Made by a program: the position numbers and the translations under genes | In this document: positions 3,168 to 12,293 of the stretch, in pieces | How the letters are laid out: every line of letters starts with the position of its first letter | Position numbering within the stretch: position 1 is the first letter of the stretch | Source: a virus | Virus record (IMG/VR): IMGVR_UViG_3300027844_000500 | Location: 1 to 25,619 of that record | Length of the DNA stretch: 25,619 nt | Strand: one strand, 5' to 3' | Notes under the pieces: generated by a model | Told to the model about the DNA's origin: nothing | Seen by the model: only the letters and a program-made list of their open reading frames with translations | Databases searched by the model: none

Positions 3168-3255
3168 GCGGTGATGTATAATATATTGTACAAAAACATA
3201 TTAAATAGTATAGTATAATATACGTTATAAACAAAAACTACATAAGCCATCTTTT

Positions 3256-3312
3256 GCCTAACTTGCAAGTATAAGAGCCGTGCTTTTCGCATGGATTTTA
3301 TATAGTGTTGGC
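3256..3312 (+). repeat. Inverted-repeat element e1 (closed hairpin)
   Basis: The outer arms are GCCTAAC 3256-3262 and GTTGGC 3307-3312, which pair except for one bulged T. The inner arm from GTATAAG (3269) pairs with TTATATA (to 3304), and the tip CCGTGC 3278-3283 pairs with GCATGG 3289-3294 around TTTTC. The seventh inner-arm position is a G.T wobble, as in most elements of this set. This is the first element of the accessory array and lies before the gene at 3346. GCCTAAC also fits the RYYYAAC half of an integron attC, but the other side does not fit GTTRRRY. Confidence 0.7.
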
Positions 3313-3345
3313 ATTAGTTTTTAATAATAAATAAAATATATAAAT

Positions 3346-3606
3346 ATGACAAATTTGATTAAAAGCATAGACATACACTGTAAAGGCGAAGAGTATGTAA
3401 AAGTAGAAGGATTTGATAAGGCGATAATAGGTGTAGATGATAAACAAATGAGAATAATATATTCAATCCATTTATGCTTACATATACTCCAAACCGAAGA
3501 GGGAATGAATGAATTAGAAGCTATTGAGTTTTTTAATTTTAATATAAGAAATTCTTATATAGGAGAACACACACCTATTTATTCTTGGGATTTAATAATA
3601 ATTTAA
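3346..3606 (+). CDS. Small conserved phage hypothetical protein
   Basis: An 86-residue protein. The segments FDKAIIGVDD, RIIYSIHLCLHIL, EAIEFFNFNIRNSYIGEHTP and IYSWDL resemble a small cytoplasmic family frequent in phages, in which a conserved aspartate-rich start precedes a helix and an E-A-I-E-[FY]-F block ending in G-E-x-T-P. Its function is unknown. It is the first gene after element e1. The methyltransferase gene follows 10 bases later, so they are likely co-expressed. The leader before the ATG is A-rich. Confidence 0.8.
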   Translation: MTNLIKSIDIHCKGEEYVKVEGFDKAIIGVDDKQMRIIYSIHLCLHILQTEEGMNELEAIEFFNFNIRNSYIGEHTPIYSWDLIII

Positions 3607-3616
3607 TAAAATAGAT

Positions 3617-4381
3617 ATGAGTAATAAAATAAATTTAGATAAATTTTATACACCAAGTAAAATAGTTGACTTGTGTATTTATGAGTTTTGGGAAACATTT
3701 AAAGAGGTTACAGAATTAATTGAACCGAGTGCGGGTAATGGTGCTTTTAGCTTAAAATTAGATAATTGTATTGCTTATGATATTGAACCCGAACACAAAA
3801 CTATAATTGAACAAAATTTTTTAGAATTAGATTTACCTTACAAATACGGTAGAGCAATAATAGGAAACCCACCGTTTGGAAATAGAAATAATTTAGCGTT
3901 GAAGTTTTTTAAACATTCAATTAAAATGTGTGATATGATTGGTTTTATATTACCAATAAGCCAATTAAACAACGTAGATAGCCTTTATGAATTTGATTTA
4001 GTAAAAAGTATTGATTTAGGTAAAATGGAATATAGTGCAATAGAAGTTCATTGTTGCTTTAATCTTTATCATAGACCCGAAAACGGAATACTAAATAAAA
4101 AACCTAATTTAAAAAGCGACTTGTTTAGTTTACATAGAACTAATAGAGATAATTTTGAAAATACAAATGCAGATTTTATGTTTTGTAAACGTGGAAGTGT
4201 TGGAAAAGAAATATTTGAAGATGGTAAAAGGTATGGAGATGAATATAAAGTTGTTGTATTTGATAAAAATAATTTAGAATACGTTAGAAATACAATTTTA
4301 AACCACGATTGGAAAAACTTTAAAAACCACCAAAGCAGTCCAAACATAAGTAAAAATGATATTTACAGACTGTTTCTGTAA
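3617..4381 (+). CDS. N6-adenine DNA methyltransferase
   Basis: A 254-residue class I SAM-dependent methyltransferase. EPSAGNGAF at residues 36-44 is the SAM-binding motif I. NPPF at 84-87 is catalytic motif IV of N6-adenine methyltransferases. YTPSKIVDLCI at 11-21 is the usual start of this type, related to the methylase part of type I and IIG restriction systems. No restriction or specificity domain is present, so it is an orphan enzyme. It probably protects phage DNA from host nucleases by methylating adenines. The target site cannot be read from the sequence. Element e2 begins 6 bases after its stop. Confidence 0.85.
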   Translation: MSNKINLDKFYTPSKIVDLCIYEFWETFKEVTELIEPSAGNGAFSLKLDNCIAYDIEPEHKTIIEQNFLELDLPYKYGRAIIGNPPFGNRNNLALKFFKHSIKMCDMIGFILPISQLNNVDSLYEFDLVKSIDLGKMEYSAIEVHCCFNLYHRPENGILNKKPNLKSDLFSLHRTNRDNFENTNADFMFCKRGSVGKEIFEDGKRYGDEYKVVVFDKNNLEYVRNTILNHDWKNFKNHQSSPNISKNDIYRLFL

Positions 4382-4386
4382 TTAAT

Positions 4387-4532
4387 GCTAACGTTTTGGG
4401 TATGGTTAGTTTAACAGTAAATAAATAATAAATATGGAAGAAATACACGAAGAAATTAAAGAAGCAGTAAAGCAATTAGAAACCTACAAAAATAGGTACA
4501 GAACAAAGCAATTAACTTTAAACGGTGTTGTG
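4387..4532 (+). repeat. Inverted-repeat element e2 (open, partly degenerate)
   Basis: L is GCTAAC 4387-4392, followed later by GGTTA and GTTTAA 4409-4414. R is GCAATTAACTTTAAAC 4508-4523 plus GGTGTTGTG 4524-4532. GTTTAA pairs with TTAAAC; the next position is a C.T mismatch where other elements have G.T, and pairing beyond it needs a bulge. The start of the gene at 4434 lies in the loop, and R is inside that gene, encoding K-Q-L-T-L-N-G-V-V-K. Confidence 0.5.
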
Positions 4533-4619
4533 AAATCGTTGCCACAAGACAATTATTGCAATGTGTGCAACTTACCTACTGATGGCGAAAAATGTTATAG
4601 TAAGCGATGCCCTGTTTAA
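4434..4619 (+). CDS. Cys-rich mini-protein with element R arm in frame
   Basis: A 61-residue protein in two visible parts. Residues 1-23 are a charged amphipathic helix (EEIHEEIKEAVKQLETYKNR). Residues 26-34 (KQLTLNGVV) are encoded by the R arm of element e2. Residues 40-61 carry four cysteines (YCNVCNLPTDGEKCYSKRCP), a C-x2-C ... C-x4-C arrangement that could bind one zinc. No family is recognised. It might bind nucleic acid or a protein. The hairpin element e3 follows 12 bases after the stop. Confidence 0.65.
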   Translation: MEEIHEEIKEAVKQLETYKNRYRTKQLTLNGVVKSLPQDNYCNVCNLPTDGEKCYSKRCPV

Positions 4620-4631
4620 TGGCTATGTTTT

Positions 4632-4693
4632 ACAACGGTTAGTGTATGATTAAGTGAAACGACCCGATAGGGTTAATTATAAACATTGTTATA
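4632..4693 (+). repeat. Inverted-repeat element e3 (closed hairpin)
   Basis: ACAACGGTTA 4632-4641 leads into the arm GTGTATGATTAA 4642-4653, which pairs with TTAATTATAAAC 4673-4684: 12 positions with one mismatch and a G.T wobble at position 7. ACCC 4662-4665 and GGGT 4670-4673 can close a tip hairpin around GATA, sharing one base with the main arm. The outer AAC pairs with GTT 4688-4690. It separates the genes at 4434 and 4707. Confidence 0.7.
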
Positions 4694-4706
4694 AATCTGT
4701 TTTGAA

Positions 4707-4871
4707 ATGGAAAATAAAGTAAAAAAGTTAATTAAGAAACTAGAAGCTGAAAACGCTGATAGATATGATGACCTAAAATATAGTGATATAGACAAAGACC
4801 GTAGAAGGAGAATGAACCATAAGCACAACTATACAAGTGAAATAATACAGCAATTGAAAAATTGTTTATAA
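4707..4871 (+). CDS. Small charged hypothetical protein
   Basis: A 54-residue protein beginning M-E-N-K-V-K-K-L-I-K-K-L-E and rich in Lys, Arg, Asp and Glu, with a basic patch D-K-D-R-R-R-R-M. It is probably all helical. The stop codon TAA (4869-4871) lies inside the outer arm of element e4 and the protein ends in K-N-C-L, so the element supplies its last residues. No family is recognised. It sits between two closed hairpins, like a single-gene cassette. Confidence 0.6.
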   Translation: MENKVKKLIKKLEAENADRYDDLKYSDIDKDRRRRMNHKHNYTSEIIQQLKNCL

Positions 4872-4919
4872 CGGTTAGTATAAGACCCGTTTTTTCTATG
4901 GGTTTTATACATTGTTATA
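4867..4919 (+). repeat. Inverted-repeat element e4 (closed hairpin)
   Basis: The inner arms GTATAAGACCC 4878-4888 and GGGTTTTATAC 4900-4910 pair over 11 bp with one G.T wobble at position 7. The outer arms TATAAC and GTTATA (4914-4919) pair beyond a short internal loop. The tip differs from element e6 (ACCC/GGGT here, GTGC/GCAC there) but stays complementary, which is covariation. The stop codon of the upstream gene is in the left outer arm. Confidence 0.8.
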
Positions 4920-4995
4920 TACTGTACTATTTTAGAGCGTTGGTAAATTATTTTTGTTTAAAAATAAAATATTTACAAAATAATTTATAAAATAC

Positions 4996-5026
4996 TTGTA
5001 TATATAATATATATGATATATATTTG
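4996..5026 (+). promoter_or_regulatory. Bacteroidota promoter, TTG-N20-TATATTTG
   Basis: TTG at 4996-4998 and a perfect TATATTTG -7 box at 5019-5026 are separated by 20 bases, within the spacing known for flavobacterial promoters. The predicted start near 5032 gives a leader of about 18 bases before the ATG at 5050. It would drive the three overlapping genes 5050-5689. The rest of 4920-4995 is AT-rich with nothing else recognised. Confidence 0.7.
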
Positions 5027-5049
5027 TAGTGTAATTAAAAACAAGTATT

Positions 5050-5313
5050 ATGAAAACAGTATCTAAAGAGCAATTTAAAAAAGATTTAAAAAAACACTTC
5101 ACAACTGAAAGTGGATTTACAATAACAACAGCAAAGAAAATAATAAGAGAGCAGTTAAAAAAAGACCAATGGAATAACGCTATTAAAGCAGGTGGTGTTA
5201 GATTGTTTTTTACTGATAATGTTGATTATAGTGGTGGTGTTAAAAATGGGTTTGGTAAAGGGTTTTATTTAACAAGTGTAGGCTTTACTGGTGGGGCTGA
5301 AATAAAATTATAA
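5050..5313 (+). CDS. Small hypothetical protein, Gly-rich end
   Basis: An 87-residue protein, not recognised. The first 45 residues are basic and helical (KEQFKKDLKKHF, KKIIREQLKKDQW). The last 35 are Gly-rich and beta-like (YSGGVKNGFGKGFYLTSVGFTGG). It has its own promoter, and the next gene starts 2 bases after its stop. No signal peptide or membrane segment is seen, so it is probably cytoplasmic. It is one of the few accessory genes without an adjacent inverted-repeat element. Confidence 0.75.
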   Translation: MKTVSKEQFKKDLKKHFTTESGFTITTAKKIIREQLKKDQWNNAIKAGGVRLFFTDNVDYSGGVKNGFGKGFYLTSVGFTGGAEIKL

Positions 5314-5315
5314 AA

Positions 5316-5558
5316 ATGTACGAAAATAAATATAAAGATTATTTAGAAATTATAAACATATCTAAAGGGGTAAGATGTGTTTTACGTAAGGAGATGAGTA
5401 ATATGTATTTTAAACTTTGTGAAAGCGAAGCGTGTGAATACATAATTACAGACAGTAGAATTATATTTTATAAGTATATAGATTACTTAGAGAGATATAT
5501 AATAATAACCGTACCTGTTTTTAATAACACAAAAATAGAAAAATATATAGCATTATGA
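5316..5558 (+). CDS. Small hypothetical protein
   Basis: An 80-residue protein, not recognised. It is rich in Tyr and Ile and looks beta-rich in its second half (YIITDSRIIFYKYI, YIIITVPVF). It has two separated cysteines (KLCESEAC) but no full metal site. It lies in a three-gene operon: 2 bases after the upstream gene and with its TGA overlapping the ATG of the next gene (ATGA), a sign of translational coupling. Confidence 0.7.
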   Translation: MYENKYKDYLEIINISKGVRCVLRKEMSNMYFKLCESEACEYIITDSRIIFYKYIDYLERYIIITVPVFNNTKIEKYIAL

Positions 5559-5689
5559 GAAAACTAATAGATATACCTCAGGAAATATTGCAGGATTTAA
5601 AAATAATGGCTATTAAGAGTGAAAAAGACCTTAAAAACTACATACAAGATGTATTGAGTGAACACGTAAGAGTGGGTGGCAAAAAATAG
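5555..5689 (+). CDS. 44-residue ribbon-helix-helix-like protein
   Basis: MRKLIDIPQEILQDLKIMAI is followed by K-S-E-K-D-L-K-N-Y-I-Q-D-V-L-S-E-H. An N-terminal beta strand (RKLIDIP) followed by two helices is the layout of ribbon-helix-helix DNA-binding proteins, including small antitoxins and phage repressors. It overlaps the upstream gene by ATGA, so it may be expressed with it as a pair. The upstream protein does not look like a known toxin. DNA binding is inferred from fold layout only. Confidence 0.6.
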   Translation: MRKLIDIPQEILQDLKIMAIKSEKDLKNYIQDVLSEHVRVGGKK

Positions 5690-5696
5690 TATTGTA

Positions 5697-5827
5697 TATA
5701 ACGGCAAAGTATAAAAAATCGTAGCGATATGGATAACGAATTATTTGGGGAAGCCCACGAACAAGAAGAGAATGGATTATTTGGTAAAAAGCACCAAGCA
5801 GAGCAATGTTTTTTATACAATGTTAGC
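5697..5827 (+). repeat. Inverted-repeat element e5 (open)
   Basis: L is TATAACGG 5697-5704 plus the arm GTATAAAAAA 5709-5718. R is GCAATG 5803-5808, the arm TTTTTTATAC 5809-5818 and AATGTTAGC 5819-5827. The arms pair perfectly over 10 bp (A-T at position 7, where the others have G.T). The start codon at 5729 is in the loop and R is inside that gene, encoding E-Q-C-F-L-Y-N-V-S-Y. Confidence 0.75.
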
Positions 5828-5917
5828 TACTGTTACGAGTGTAACAAGCCTTATGATGATAAAGATAAAGAGCGCGGAATGTGTCATAAATGTTGGCAAC
5901 CAATTATTGAAGAGTAA
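5729..5917 (+). CDS. Zinc-finger-like mini-protein with element R arm in frame
   Basis: A 62-residue protein. Residues 1-25 are acidic and polar. Residues 26-34 (QCFLYNVSY) are encoded by the R arm of element e5. Residues 35-56 carry C-x2-C ... C-x2-C (CYECNKPYDD then MCHKCW), a likely single zinc site. An overlapping frame at 5745-5927 was rejected because it loses this cysteine pattern and does not match the R-arm frame used by the other genes. The function is unknown; the zinc unit could bind nucleic acid or a protein. Confidence 0.65.
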   Translation: MDNELFGEAHEQEENGLFGKKHQAEQCFLYNVSYCYECNKPYDDKDKERGMCHKCWQPIIEE

Positions 5918-5920
5918 TTG

Positions 5921-5970
5921 TTGCTAACGCATTGTATAAGGTGCGTTTTAATGCACTTTATACGTTGTTG
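5921..5970 (+). repeat. Inverted-repeat element e6 (closed hairpin)
   Basis: TTGCTAACG 5921-5929, then the arm GTATAAGGTGC 5934-5944, a short tip, the arm GCACTTTATAC 5953-5963 and GTTGTTG 5964-5970. The 11-bp stem has a single G.T wobble at position 7. The outer AAC pairs with GTT. It begins 4 bases after the stop of the gene at 5729 and is the clearest compact copy in the array. Confidence 0.85.
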
Positions 5971-6006
5971 TGAGTATGTATTATTTTTTAACTAAATAAA
6001 TAGATT

Positions 6007-6165
6007 ATGGATTGCCAAAGACCAGTAAAAAACAAAGAAACAAATAAGTGGGAAGTATGGGATTTTGCTTATGTAGAAAACGGAGAAAGGTTTTATGAAC
6101 TTCACGAGTTTTTTACACATAAAGAAGCAATAGAGTTTTGGAAAGTAAGAAACCCTAAAAAATAA
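6007..6165 (+). CDS. Small hypothetical protein
   Basis: A 52-residue protein with ATG at 6007 after an A-rich leader (AAATAAATAGATT). It is rich in aromatic residues (KWEVWDFAYVENGERFYELH) and ends in a helix E-A-I-E-F-W-K-V-R-N-P-K-K. It looks like a compact beta-hairpin plus helix. No family is recognised. It lies between closed element e6 and the left arm of e7, as a single-gene cassette. Confidence 0.65.
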   Translation: MDCQRPVKNKETNKWEVWDFAYVENGERFYELHEFFTHKEAIEFWKVRNPKK

Positions 6166-6173
6166 TATTACTT

Positions 6174-6366
6174 ACAACGTATTTGTGTAAGCGTTTTTGC
6201 GTGAATAAAATAATAACTTAATAAATAAAAGACTAAAAAATGAAAAGTAAATCAGAGAAAATATTTGAATTAGAATCTATGGTAGATTTTTATAAAGAAG
6301 AATTAGCAAGCCTTAAAAAAGTTAATAAAGAACTAACCGAGCAATTACGTTTACACGTTGTTAGCC
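6174..6366 (+). repeat. Inverted-repeat element e7 (open)
   Basis: L is ACAACG 6174-6179 and the arm GTGTAAGCGTTTTTGC 6185-6200. R is GCAATTACGTTTACAC 6341-6356 and GTTGTTAGCC 6357-6366. The 16 arm positions pair with a G.T wobble at position 7 and two mismatches. The start of the gene at 6240 is in the loop. R lies inside that gene and encodes Q-L-R-L-H-V-V-S-Q. Confidence 0.75.
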
Positions 6367-6605
6367 AATGTTTTGCGATTAAAGAGCCTATTATTATTGA
6401 TGCAATGGAGGCTTGTTTAAGCGTAGGGTATGCAAGCACTTCGTTATTTACCAGAAGATTGAATGTACCTTATAAAACAGCAATGAAAATAATGGATACG
6501 CTAGAGGATAATAAAATGGTAGGAATGTTTAACGGAACTGCCAAAAGAGAACTTATGCTTAATGATGTTGAATTTAAAAAACTACTTAAGCAAAATTGTT
6601 GCTAA
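6240..6605 (+). CDS. Coiled coil plus FtsK-gamma-like winged helix
   Basis: A 121-residue protein. Residues 1-36 form a likely coiled coil (KIFELESMVDFYKEELASLK). Residues 35-42 (QLRLHVVS) are encoded by the R arm of element e7. Residues 49-108 (IDAMEACLSVGYASTSLFTR onwards, then Y-K-T-A-M-K-I-M-D-T-L-E and A-K-R-E-L) match the layout of the FtsK gamma winged-helix domain, which in FtsK reads polar DNA motifs. There is no ATPase domain. A sequence-specific DNA-binding role is therefore likely, with an unknown target. The stop codon lies in the left arm of element e8 and the protein ends N-C-C. Confidence 0.75.
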   Translation: MKSKSEKIFELESMVDFYKEELASLKKVNKELTEQLRLHVVSQCFAIKEPIIIDAMEACLSVGYASTSLFTRRLNVPYKTAMKIMDTLEDNKMVGMFNGTAKRELMLNDVEFKKLLKQNCC

Positions 6606-6810
6606 CGGATGCGGTTAAGATTAGTTGCGTAGAATTAATGAATAAAACAAAATAGAAATGAAAATAGATGATATAAAGTACAGGGTAAATAGAGGCTACA
6701 CAATGAGTATTTACGGAAATAGCCAAGCAATACACGAAGAAATGTTAAAAGACATAACTTTCTTACTAGAACAAAACGAGCAATTAATTTTAACCGATGT
6801 TAGCCAACAA
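6596..6810 (+). repeat. Inverted-repeat element e8 (open, best-paired)
   Basis: L is TTGTTGCTAACG 6596-6607 and the arm CGGTTAAGATTAGTTGC 6612-6628. R is GCAATTAATTTTAACCG 6780-6796 and GTTAGCCAACAA 6799-6810. The 17-base arms pair completely with two G.T wobbles. The outer TTGTTG-CTAAC pairs with GTTAGCCAACAA apart from one bulged C. The gene at 6658 starts in the loop, and R lies inside it, encoding Q-L-I-L-T-D-V-S-Q. Confidence 0.85.
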
Positions 6811-6918
6811 CGTGAACTGTTGGAGCTTGTTACCGAGATAGCAAATAGTAAACAAGTTTACTCTAATACAAGACATAAATTATGGGCAAAAAAATTGATT
6901 AGCTCTAATTGTGGCTAA
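6658..6918 (+). CDS. Small hypothetical protein with element R arm in frame
   Basis: An 86-residue, mostly helical protein. Residues 41-49 (EQLILTDVS) are encoded by the R arm of element e8, splitting the protein into an N-terminal part (KIDDIKYRVNRGYTMSIYGN onwards) and a C-terminal helix (RELLELVTEIANSKQ). No family is recognised. The stop codon TAA (6916-6918) is inside the GGCTAAC core of element e9 and the protein ends S-N-C-G, parallel to the N-C-C end of the preceding gene. That parallel shows the elements also encode C-termini. Confidence 0.7.
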   Translation: MKIDDIKYRVNRGYTMSIYGNSQAIHEEMLKDITFLLEQNEQLILTDVSQQRELLELVTEIANSKQVYSNTRHKLWAKKLISSNCG

Positions 6919-7042
6919 CTTAGTTGTGTATGGCACGTTGCGAAATTAATAATTAAATAAAATAGATATGGGACAAAGTTGGTGTGGTACAATAGATAAT
7001 AGAAAAAAGAAGAAAAAGCAATGTGATATACACGTTGTTGTG
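6911..7042 (+). repeat. Inverted-repeat element e9 (open)
   Basis: L is GTGGCTAAC 6911-6919 and the arm GTGTATGGCACGTTGC 6926-6941. R is GCAATGTGATATACAC 7018-7033 and GTTGTTGTG 7034-7042. The 16 arm positions pair with G.T wobbles at positions 7 and 12 and one mismatch at position 8. The start codon at 6968 lies in the loop and R is in frame in that short gene. Confidence 0.75.
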
Positions 7043-7081
7043 CGACGTTATTGGAAAAAAGCCCTTAAATTGAAAATTTAA
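6968..7081 (+). CDS. 37-residue basic mini-protein
   Basis: MGQSWCGTIDNRKKKKKQCD is followed by I-H-V-V-V-R-R-Y-W-K-K-A-L-K-L-K-I. The leader AAATAAAATAGAT before the ATG matches that of other accessory genes here. The R arm of element e9 encodes Q-C-D-I-H-V-V-V, in the same frame as in the neighbouring genes, which supports translation. It is strongly basic and could bind nucleic acid, though it is short enough that coding status is uncertain. Confidence 0.5.
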   Translation: MGQSWCGTIDNRKKKKKQCDIHVVVRRYWKKALKLKI

Positions 7082-7088
7082 AATACGT

Positions 7089-7217
7089 ATGAGTAAGGAA
7101 GAATTAATTGATTTAATAATTGAATGTGTTAAAACAGCAGAGGATGACACTTACGGAACTATAAACTACGGTGTATTAAAAATATTCTTAAAAAACGAAA
7201 TACCTAATAAAAGATGA
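7089..7217 (+). CDS. 42-residue acidic hypothetical protein
   Basis: MSKEELIDLIIECVKTAEDD is followed by T-Y-G-T-I-N-Y-G-V-L-K-I-F-L-K-N-E. The pattern suggests two helices. Its TGA overlaps the ATG of the methyltransferase gene (ATGA), so the two are translationally coupled. That makes it a candidate partner or regulator of the methyltransferase. No family is recognised. Confidence 0.6.
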   Translation: MSKEELIDLIIECVKTAEDDTYGTINYGVLKIFLKNEIPNKR

Positions 7218-7972
7218 TAAAATTATACAAAGGAGATTGCTTAATAGAAAGCGATAAAATAGAAAGTGGTAGCGTTGATTTGATATTGACTGATTTACCT
7301 TATGGAACTACTAACAGAAATAAATGGGATGTTATCATACCTTTTGATGAAATGTGGAATTTTGTAAATAGAGTTAAAAAGAAAAACACAGCAATACTTT
7401 TTTTTAGTGATGAGCCGTTTACAAGTGAATTAATATTAAGTAATAGAAAACACTTTAAACAAAGAATTAATTGGGATAAAGATAGGGGAAGCGGATTTTT
7501 GAACGCTAAAAAAATGCTATTAAAACAAACTGAAGATATATGTTTGTTTTACGAAAAACCACCAACGTATAATCCCCAAATGATGGATGCTGACCCAAGC
7601 AGAATAAGACCATTTAAAAAAGATAGACCAGCAAGTAATGAAAGCACCAATTATGGAAGTACAAAAAACTTAAACTATAGCAAAGATTATGACAATACAA
7701 AAAGATACCCAACAAACTTGATTAAGTTTTCAAGTATGACAAATGATTGTAACCCAAAACACAGAATGCACCCAACACAAAAGCCAATTGAAATGCTTGA
7801 ATGGTTAATTAAAACTTATACTAATGAAGGAATGACTGTTTTAGATTTTACTATGGGTTCAGGAAGTACTGGGGTTGCTTGTGTAAATACAAACAGAGAT
7901 TTTATAGGAATTGAGCAAGACGCTAATTATTTCCAGATTGCAACCGATAGAGTGGGGGCTTTTTTACAATAA
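7214..7972 (+). CDS. Beta-class DNA methyltransferase (N6-adenine or N4-cytosine)
   Basis: A 252-residue enzyme. Motif IV TDLPYG is at residues 26-31 (a D-L-P-Y variant of DPPY). HPTQKP follows around 188. The SAM-binding motif I FTMGSGSTG is at 212-220, ahead of R-D-F-I-G-I-E. Motif IV before motif I defines the beta class, typical of solitary phage and restriction-modification enzymes. No restriction endonuclease is adjacent. It likely methylates phage DNA against host restriction; the site is unknown. It differs from the gene at 3617 in motif order, so this region carries two unrelated methyltransferases. Confidence 0.88.
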   Translation: MIKLYKGDCLIESDKIESGSVDLILTDLPYGTTNRNKWDVIIPFDEMWNFVNRVKKKNTAILFFSDEPFTSELILSNRKHFKQRINWDKDRGSGFLNAKKMLLKQTEDICLFYEKPPTYNPQMMDADPSRIRPFKKDRPASNESTNYGSTKNLNYSKDYDNTKRYPTNLIKFSSMTNDCNPKHRMHPTQKPIEMLEWLIKTYTNEGMTVLDFTMGSGSTGVACVNTNRDFIGIEQDANYFQIATDRVGAFLQ

Positions 7973-7973
7973 T

Positions 7974-8105
7974 GGCTCACAACTGAATTGTACAAGAATA
8001 GTTGCGACATAAAGCAGCAAATTAGTAAACAAACATTAACCAATAAGTTATATAAAACTTAATAAACAAGCCATAACAAGCAATTATTTTTGTACGTTGT
8101 TATGC
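7974..8105 (+). repeat. Inverted-repeat element e10 (open, non-coding loop)
   Basis: L begins GGCTCACAAC (7974-7983) with the arm GTACAAGAATAGTTGC 7990-8005. R is GCAATTATTTTTGTAC 8080-8095 and GTTGTTATGC 8096-8105. The 16-base arms pair completely, with G.T wobbles at positions 7 and 12. The 74-base loop holds no open reading frame of note. R here is not inside a gene, but its bases would still read Q-L-F-L-Y-V-V in the same phase. Confidence 0.85.
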
Positions 8106-8115
8106 ATTTTTAAAA

Positions 8116-8310
8116 ATGGGACACAGAATAAATTTAGAGGGATTACTAGCATTTCAAAGAGAAGAAAAAGTTTTGTTTGCATCGAGTAGCAAGGAACATA
8201 AAAAATTATACATTGAACTTAGGGGTAATTATACAGTGTATGTAAATAAAGAATTAGTTTTAGAAACGATGCAAGCAAAAGTTGCTATAGATAAGTACAA
8301 TTCCTTTTAA
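8116..8310 (+). CDS. Small hypothetical protein
   Basis: A 64-residue protein, not recognised. MGHRINLEGLLAFQREEKVL is followed by a beta-like central part (KKLYIELRGNYTVYVNKELV) and a short helix. The ATG at 8116 lies 10 bases after element e10 and is preceded by A-rich sequence. Its stop is 4 bases before the left arm of element e11. It is probably a small cytoplasmic accessory protein. Confidence 0.65.
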   Translation: MGHRINLEGLLAFQREEKVLFASSSKEHKKLYIELRGNYTVYVNKELVLETMQAKVAIDKYNSF

Positions 8311-8314
8311 TTGT

Positions 8315-8526
8315 GCCTAACGAATGGTGTATGGGTAGTTTATTTAACGATTAAAAATAAACAAATGGAAATATTAAAAGCAATAGAAATAATAGAAAAG
8401 CACAATGTTTGGCGAAGAGATAATAATGTACCTGCAAAAACTGAAATGGCAAACCCTACTGAATTAGGAATAGCAATTGACGAAGTACTAAGTAAGTTAA
8501 ATAAATTACTTATACACGGTGTTAAC
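8315..8526 (+). repeat. Inverted-repeat element e11 (open)
   Basis: L is GCCTAACG 8315-8322 and the arm GTGTATGGGTAGTTT 8327-8341. R is AAATTACTTATACAC 8503-8517 and GGTGTTAAC 8518-8526. The 15 arm positions pair with G.T wobbles at 7, 8 and 12. TTTAAC 8343-8348 and GTTAAA 8496-8501 can extend the stem. The gene at 8365 starts in the loop and R is inside it, encoding K-L-L-I-H-G-V-N. Confidence 0.75.
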
Positions 8527-8697
8527 TGCTGTAAGCCGACTTCATTTGAAAAGAACAACTTACCTGATGATGTAAAATATGCTTTTAATGAAGGTGTAGA
8601 GATTTACCAAGCGGTTATGAGCTATGAAAGTGCTATAATAGATAGAGCTGAATTTATAGAAGATGTACGAAAAGTTAAAAAGGCTTATTGTATTTAA
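8365..8697 (+). CDS. Two-part phage protein with conserved N-terminal domain
   Basis: A 110-residue protein. Residues 3-47 (ILKAIEIIEKHNVWRRDNNV, then M-A-N-P-T-E-L-G-I-A-I-D) match a small domain widespread in phage proteins, with the H-N-x-W-R-R and L-G-x-A-I-D signatures; its function is unknown. Residues 48-55 (LLIHGVNC) come from the R arm of element e11. Residues 60-110 form a separate helical part. The ATG at 8365 was preferred over an in-frame TTG at 8311 that lies in the element. The element thus falls at the junction of the two parts. Confidence 0.75.
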   Translation: MEILKAIEIIEKHNVWRRDNNVPAKTEMANPTELGIAIDEVLSKLNKLLIHGVNCCKPTSFEKNNLPDDVKYAFNEGVEIYQAVMSYESAIIDRAEFIEDVRKVKKAYCI

Positions 8698-11957: not shown

Positions 11958-11969
11958 ATTGTATATTGC
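11958..11969 (+). promoter_or_regulatory. TTGTATATTGCC promoter-like motif
   Basis: A copy of the TTGTATATT motif 8 bases after the terL stop codon and 43 bases before the next start. It may give an extra start for the tail block. The -7 box deviates from consensus (TATATTGC) and no clear -33 element is seen. Confidence 0.4.
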
Positions 11970-12011
11970 CGATAGCTAAATACTATTTGAAATTTAATTA
12001 GCATAGATAAC

Positions 12012-12293
12012 ATGAATACAGAAGAGTTTACAGGATTAGACAAAGATATGCAAGCGTTGAACTTCAAGGTGATACAGTCTATACAGATAAAAGAAAATGA
12101 AATGGTCAAAAGTATTCTTAAAGACTACTTAAAGCGTGACGTTAAAGGAAATGATTTAAAGTTTATAGATAAGCAGTTCGACATGGTCAGAAAGAATGTA
12201 TATTTCCTGTATTTTAAAGATGAATTGCTAGGAGCTATTGAATATATAATGAGGGATAACAAGGTAGGTTTAAGTTTTGAGCCGATGGTTTAG
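12012..12293 (+). CDS. Hypothetical protein, first gene of the tail block
   Basis: A 93-residue, mostly helical, acidic protein (NTEEFTGLDKDMQALNFKVI onwards, then a segment K-N-V-Y-F-L-Y-F-K-D-E-L-L-G). No family is recognised. It follows terL after a 61-base gap with a promoter-like motif and ends directly against the next gene. Its place before tail genes suggests a virion-assembly role. Confidence 0.75.
   Translation: MNTEEFTGLDKDMQALNFKVIQSIQIKENEMVKSILKDYLKRDVKGNDLKFIDKQFDMVRKNVYFLYFKDELLGAIEYIMRDNKVGLSFEPMV

Follow-up and report, generated by a model that had tools for sequence, protein, structure and literature searches.

In integron cassettes, the complementarity between the R' box of one site and the R'' box of the next, R'(n)/R''(n+1), is a hallmark that arises because the two boxes are parts of a single circular cassette. 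The I2 helix of the integron integrase is held to enable a tyrosine recombinase to handle the folded, single-stranded attC site, and is the feature used to find integrons. Clusters of attC sites in phages, P12002L included, have already been published (Qi et al. 2023, PMC9892861); in that work, the P12002L sites were predicted by HattCI, two of them were tested, and attC2 was recombined with attI1 by IntI1 on the bottom strand only. For IntI1, I2 has been described as necessary for cassette capture and as found in no other protein (PMC7790495). Among complete integrons in Bacteroidetes proper, the available portion of the IntegronFinder 2 paper names Salinibacter only, and no flavobacterial integron appears in that portion (PMC9024848). 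The open-licence literature contained no report of flavobacterial arrays, of an I2-less recombinase or of inverted phage cassettes; earlier work elsewhere is possible.

The window analyzed here is the whole virus record IMGVR_UViG_3300027844_000500 (25,619 bases), which has phage head genes (terminase), and its nearest terminase relatives are other viral contigs. It contains 11 paired-arm elements at 3253-8530 that are very probably integron-type attC sites, forming an integrase-less cassette array in a phage of marine Flavobacteria on which a host recombinase would act in trans. A paired-arm finder (score of at least 12, span within 250 nt) returned 12 matches against 0.1 expected from shuffled windows, and the high-scoring matches were confined to 3240-8525. 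Each element has outer AAC and GTT boxes; a spacer of 3-6 nt separates AAC from the inner stem, and 0-3 nt separate the matching arm from GTT, with the loop between the two arms. The arms paired with their own partner with a mean score of 13.6, versus a mean of 6.2 (maximum 12.6) with the partners of other elements, so they covary. The excess over shuffled windows and this arm specificity bear out the initial annotation, which had described four closed elements with covarying tips (e1, e3, e4 and e6) and seven open ones with the same two arms, all 11 of which were recovered by coordinates. The stretch 4632-5970 on which it had focused comprises only e3-e6 of the array, and it included neither the complementarity of each right flank to the next left flank nor the AAC and GTT motifs as recombination boxes.

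A covariance model trained solely on 40 bacterial chromosomal sites, the E-values of which are rough, matched 10 of the 11 elements, all on the minus strand. Coordinates are given from AAC to GTT on the plus strand of the window, and the minus strand is the one with the canonical bacterial (ORF-sense) site orientation, to which the array as delimited by finder, covariance model and arm scores (11 sites, 10 complete cassettes) is assigned. The four closed elements, with loops of 2-19 nt, were all recovered by the finder and include site 1 (3253-3316, AAC at 3260 and GTT at 3309, tip CCGTGC/GCATGG), site 3 (4627-4697, AAC-GTT 4634-4690, 44.3 bits), site 4 (4863-4923, AAC-GTT 4870-4916, 50.7 bits) and site 6 (5919-5976, AAC-GTT 5926-5969, 43.9 bits); the model thus matched three of the four at about 44-51 bits, missing 3260-3309. 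The seven open elements, with loops of about 74-159 nt and the inner motif AGTTGC/GCAATT in common, were all matched (18.3-67.5 bits). Site 2 (4383-4536, AAC-GTT 4390-4529, 20.1 bits) has the weakest arms (score 6.7), and its loop holds the start of ORF 4434-4619. The remaining open elements, also recovered by the finder, are site 5 (5693-5831, AAC-GTT 5700-5824, 39.4 bits), with the start of ORF 5729-5917 in its loop, site 7 (6169-6369, AAC-GTT 6176-6362, 18.3 bits), with that of ORF 6240-6605, site 8 (6597-6808, AAC-GTT 6604-6801, 44.2 bits), with that of ORF 6658-6918, site 9 (6910-7046, AAC-GTT 6917-7039, 58 bits), with that of a short ORF (6967), site 10 (7974-8108, AAC-GTT 7981-8101, 67.5 bits), with a non-coding loop of about 74 nt of the chromosomal type, and site 11 (8312-8530, AAC-GTT 8319-8523, 29.3 bits), with the start of a 110-aa ORF ending at 8697. 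That open inserts usually hold a gene start is therefore correct for six of the seven loops, in which the ORF reads on through the right arm, and incorrect for 7981-8101, where the gene begins just 3' of the site. The closed and open elements had been regarded as forms of the same element, and a model built from host sites alone matches both; they are the short and long variable terminal loops of one attC site type. A search of the window against Rfam gave no match.

Between neighbouring elements, the right flank of one matched the reverse complement of the left flank of its successor at 52 of 80 letters, compared with 29 of 88 for the two flanks of a single element, and neighbour permutations reached 52 matches once in 200,000; the array thus has the complementarity between neighbours that marks integron cassettes. 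In DNA folding, the attC bottom strand was the more stable one in 38 of 40 host sites and in all 11 window sites, and a preference for bottom-strand folding is a known asymmetry of integrons. As in attC sites, the elements are imperfect inverted repeats with AAC/GTT boxes, inner arms and a variable loop; AAC and GTT are present in every element, with the outer four bases fitting the RYYYAAC/GTTRRRY consensus only loosely. A PHROGs scan of ten window proteins revealed no integrase, and the array corresponds to a CALIN, that is, a run of two or more attC sites with mobile cassettes and no integrase nearby.

The cassettes of the window, all transcribed from the plus strand where a function could be assigned, include ORF 6240-6605, which starts in the loop of site 7, carries FtsK_gamma (PF09397, E 8e-12) in the cassette body as its C-terminal part and ends with a TAA formed within the AAC box of site 8. 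The cassette at 6917-7980 has an N6_N4 DNA methyltransferase (7214-7972, PF01555, E 7.5e-30), and the cassette at 3260-4391 has a methyltransferase-like gene (3617-4381) with matches to phrog_5172 and phrog_799 and no Pfam match. The ends of the former cassette (7037-7064/7956-7983) are inverted repeats of each other over 28 bp (86%), a length far above that of the R boxes. In nucleotide searches with the array, the matches listed were mostly to methylase genes for phages, and to methyltransferase genes for plasmids.

The same sites are present in bacterial chromosomes. A left-arm pattern with 20 specified bases, searched in genome contigs, was found in 116 stretches. Among the matches listed, nearly all belonged to Flavobacteriaceae; the others were from a few further Bacteroidota and a contig titled Candidatus Kapaibacterium. 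The host sites lie in arrays with a spacing of roughly 0.3-2 kb, after stop codons; most of their loops measure 70-89 nt, and a second class measures 120-150 nt. Neighbouring host sites are complementary at 4.89 of 7 letters on average, versus a shuffled mean of 2.41 (maximum 2.74), and 109 of 175 neighbour pairs match at 6-7 of the 7 letters. Between sites, ORFs of at least 90 aa number 204 in one sense versus 4 in the opposite one, which is the typical cassette polarity, with the ORF upstream of attC and in the same sense. In Lacinutrix neustonica, an array of about 160 kb occupies one strand between 841 kb and 1,000 kb. Duplicated cassettes at different places in this genome match each other exactly from GTT to the end of the site that follows the ORF and diverge beyond it, with the break at ..ACC|GTT. 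Together with 20 homologous cassette pairs, in 16 of which the downstream site was the better conserved one (16:4), these duplicates place the exchange point where integrons have it, at the GTT that lies beyond the site when read along the gene. Sites occur in 55 of 60 Flavobacteriaceae genomes, often as long arrays, and a tyrosine recombinase of about 380 aa in 48; the five site-free genomes all lack the recombinase as well (Fisher p about 1.5e-4), and seven of the 55 site-bearing genomes have none at E<=1e-40. Phylum-wide, sites were present in 33 of 80 sampled genomes.

The recombinase is also co-located with the sites. Regions of up to 20 kb around it had sites within 20 kb in 13 of 15 cases, compared with none of five control regions around XerC/XerD-like genes. 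In most of the recombinase regions the array starts no more than about 1.6 kb past the stop codon of the gene and extends in the direction leading away from it. The exceptions include one locus (L217) with its sole site on the 5' side, one with only a partial recombinase match (L229), and two without a site, shortened by contig ends (L224 and L227). The recombinase passes the NCBI XerA/"integron integrase" model NF040815 and not TIGR02249, which was above its cut-off in none of 16 genomes. In the segment that takes up 64 residues in IntI4 (2A3V), the recombinase has 22 and so lacks the I2 region; I2 was missing in all 12 aligned array-side recombinases, in which the catalytic R, K, H, R, H and Y columns are invariant. 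It thus has the catalytic residues of an IntI and lacks the I2 or additional domain. An N-terminal extension of about 100 residues (L216:9164-10303, residues 1-110) lies outside all Pfam matches and has no counterpart in the XerC/D proteins from these genomes; recognition of the sites might depend on it in place of I2. The recombinase copy of L. neustonica (L228:9242-10379) has its reading frame broken by stop codons.

At seven loci, a candidate attI was found as a GTT junction 41-174 nt past the recombinase stop codon with complementarity to the R'' box of the first array site, and these candidates are preceded by an inverted-repeat segment resembling dif. Two further loci have junctions much farther from the stop codon, the first site probably having been missed, and at two loci no attI-like junction was found. 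The host loci hence combine the components of a complete integron, namely a recombinase that may qualify as an integron integrase, an attI, as a candidate recognized by sequence, and an adjacent array.

The Polaribacter phages P12002L and P12002S, which are more than 99% identical around their arrays, differ by whole cassettes. The finder and the covariance model located about ten sites in P12002L. P12002S has one extra cassette of 914 bp at a site common to P12002L, consisting of a closed site and a body, which by coordinate mapping falls on the methyltransferase gene gp38, and an additional block of three cassettes (303, 360 and 431 bp). Replacements between the two phages start at AAC|G, and most of the breaks are located at the AAC box. 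In the three-cassette event, the exchange was not exactly at the box, since the spacer belonging to the first of the extra cassettes is retained in P12002L; it took place either inside the spacer/L arm or by homologous recombination. The comparison of related phages that had been suggested earlier thus does find different site forms at equivalent positions, and these share a flank as a result of cassette insertion or replacement rather than of the filling of a tip.

The viral set comprised 23 arrays from 22 records with 89 sites, some of the contigs being near-duplicates (e.g. L276/L278). In these arrays, the ORFs are opposite in sense to the host cassettes (94:1), the reverse of the typical cassette polarity. 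An ORF starts in the loop and continues through the arm at 32 of 68 open viral sites, with GTT in frame 0 in 27 of the 32, whereas host loops rarely contain ORF starts and are mostly non-coding. With the exchange point on the AAC side, a single cassette contains the site together with both the start and the end of the gene. A scheme in which the N-terminus derives from the preceding cassette was rejected, the crossover side being fixed by the host duplicates and by P12002L/P12002S. The viral loops are unrelated in sequence at most sites; two of them (L003:541-726 and L040:10578-10763) have nearly the same loop, with 89% protein identity over 44 residues, on stems that differ and are each self-complementary, followed by unrelated C-terminal parts. 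This common loop on different stems indicates that loops are separable from stems over longer times, either by loop exchange or by arm replacement. A loop-domain search of the viral contigs gave nothing beyond these two.

Several side observations concern other viral sites. The window site at 5700 has a weak match in P12002S (E 1.5e-4), which may be a second case of loop sharing. By eye, ORF 6658-6918 of the window and 11968-12152 on the minus strand of L253 have similar N-terminal halves (RGYT.S.YGNS...HE.M..DI..LLE) and different C-terminal halves; a profile comparison gave no confirmation of this N-terminal likeness. The terminase relatives L032, L034, L042 and L026 have one or a few sites each, whose inner motifs differ (e.g. 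GCGATGTGG) and which may represent another attC lineage. A group of viral contigs (L044, L047, L067 and L073) has a conserved 16-bp inverted repeat, ACAATTCGTTCGCGTG / CACGAGGACGATTTGT.

In the mechanism proposed here, the best-folding strand, which is the phage sense strand, would be the substrate for recombination, and the I2-less tyrosine recombinase of the host would act on the phage sites in trans. Exchange would take place at the AAC box, corresponding to the R' box (GTT) in the host gene direction, and a phage cassette would consist of a site and the downstream gene body, with the gene often beginning in the site loop and ending with the TAA formed in the next AAC box. We infer that the recombinase moves the sites, on single strands and in trans for phages, and that there is cassette traffic between phage and host. 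It could be argued that the sites belong to the attC type and are moved by another enzyme, such as XerC/XerD, an unrecognized IntI or a phage recombinase, the adjacent recombinase being a bystander. The site-bearing genomes without the recombinase at the threshold (7 of 55), its lack of I2 and the use of P12002L attC2 by IntI1 (PMC9892861) are compatible with such an enzyme. However, no genome of the 16 had TIGR02249 over the cut-off, the arrays adjoin the recombinase of about 380 aa and not XerC/D, its catalytic R-K-H-R-H-Y set is invariant in the alignment, and attI-like junctions follow its stop codon, so that a bystander role is unlikely.

The initial annotation had suggested that closed hairpins gain or lose a mobile insert at the tip. 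The inner motif in common among open sites and the L003/L040 pair, with its common loop and different stems and C-terminal parts, would agree with this, and the part that stands is that a loop can be separated from its stem. Nevertheless, the sister phages change by whole cassettes with breaks mostly at the AAC box, most viral loops are unrelated, host loops are mostly non-coding, and closed forms have no conserved tip boundary; gain or loss at the tip is contradicted for recent events and is very unlikely to account for the two forms. A control of translation by RNA hairpins at start codons might likewise be considered, as six of the seven open loops of the window contain a start codon, 27 of the 32 viral ORFs are in the same frame at GTT, and the sense strand of the window folds better. 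It has no place for the R'/R'' complementarity between neighbours or for the exchange of whole cassettes, while host sites lie after stop codons with non-coding loops and closed forms have no start codon, which makes a primary role at the RNA level extremely improbable; a secondary effect of the sites on translation may exist. Cassette recombination at attC sites is thus the preferred reading.

On balance, it seems rather probable that Flavobacteriaceae have a widespread lineage of I2-less integrons working on single-stranded attC hairpins, and that their phages have, and exchange, a separate cassette pool of reversed polarity with loop-encoded gene starts, the shuffling of which can yield new combinations of N- and C-termini. 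If an I2-less integron is indeed family-wide, integrons would be far commoner in marine Bacteroidota than has been counted, and the lineage would offer a natural test of the requirement for I2. The phage arrays show methyltransferase and other genes being acquired and lost one cassette at a time.

Compared with the phage CALINs of Qi et al. 2023 (PMC9892861), the sites are of the same class; the available part of that study does not cover a host array, a host recombinase, the inverted polarity, the starts in loops or the cassette differences between sister phages. The flavobacterial system resembles XerC/XerD-dif in the Xer-like length of the catalytic domain and in the dif-like inverted repeats of the attI candidates, and differs from it in that no sites lie within 20 kb of the XerC/D loci that the genomes also contain. 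Similarly to the Vibrio-type superintegrons with IntI, it has an integrase gene, an attI-like junction and a long array of one-ORF cassettes, as well as R'/R'' complementarity within the cassette, crossover at GTT and a preference for folding of the bottom strand. Unlike the Vibrio type, its recombinase is XerA/XerC-like, without I2 and with an extra N-terminus of about 100 aa, and transcription of its gene proceeds towards the array and in the sense of the cassettes, with the attI candidate past the stop codon.
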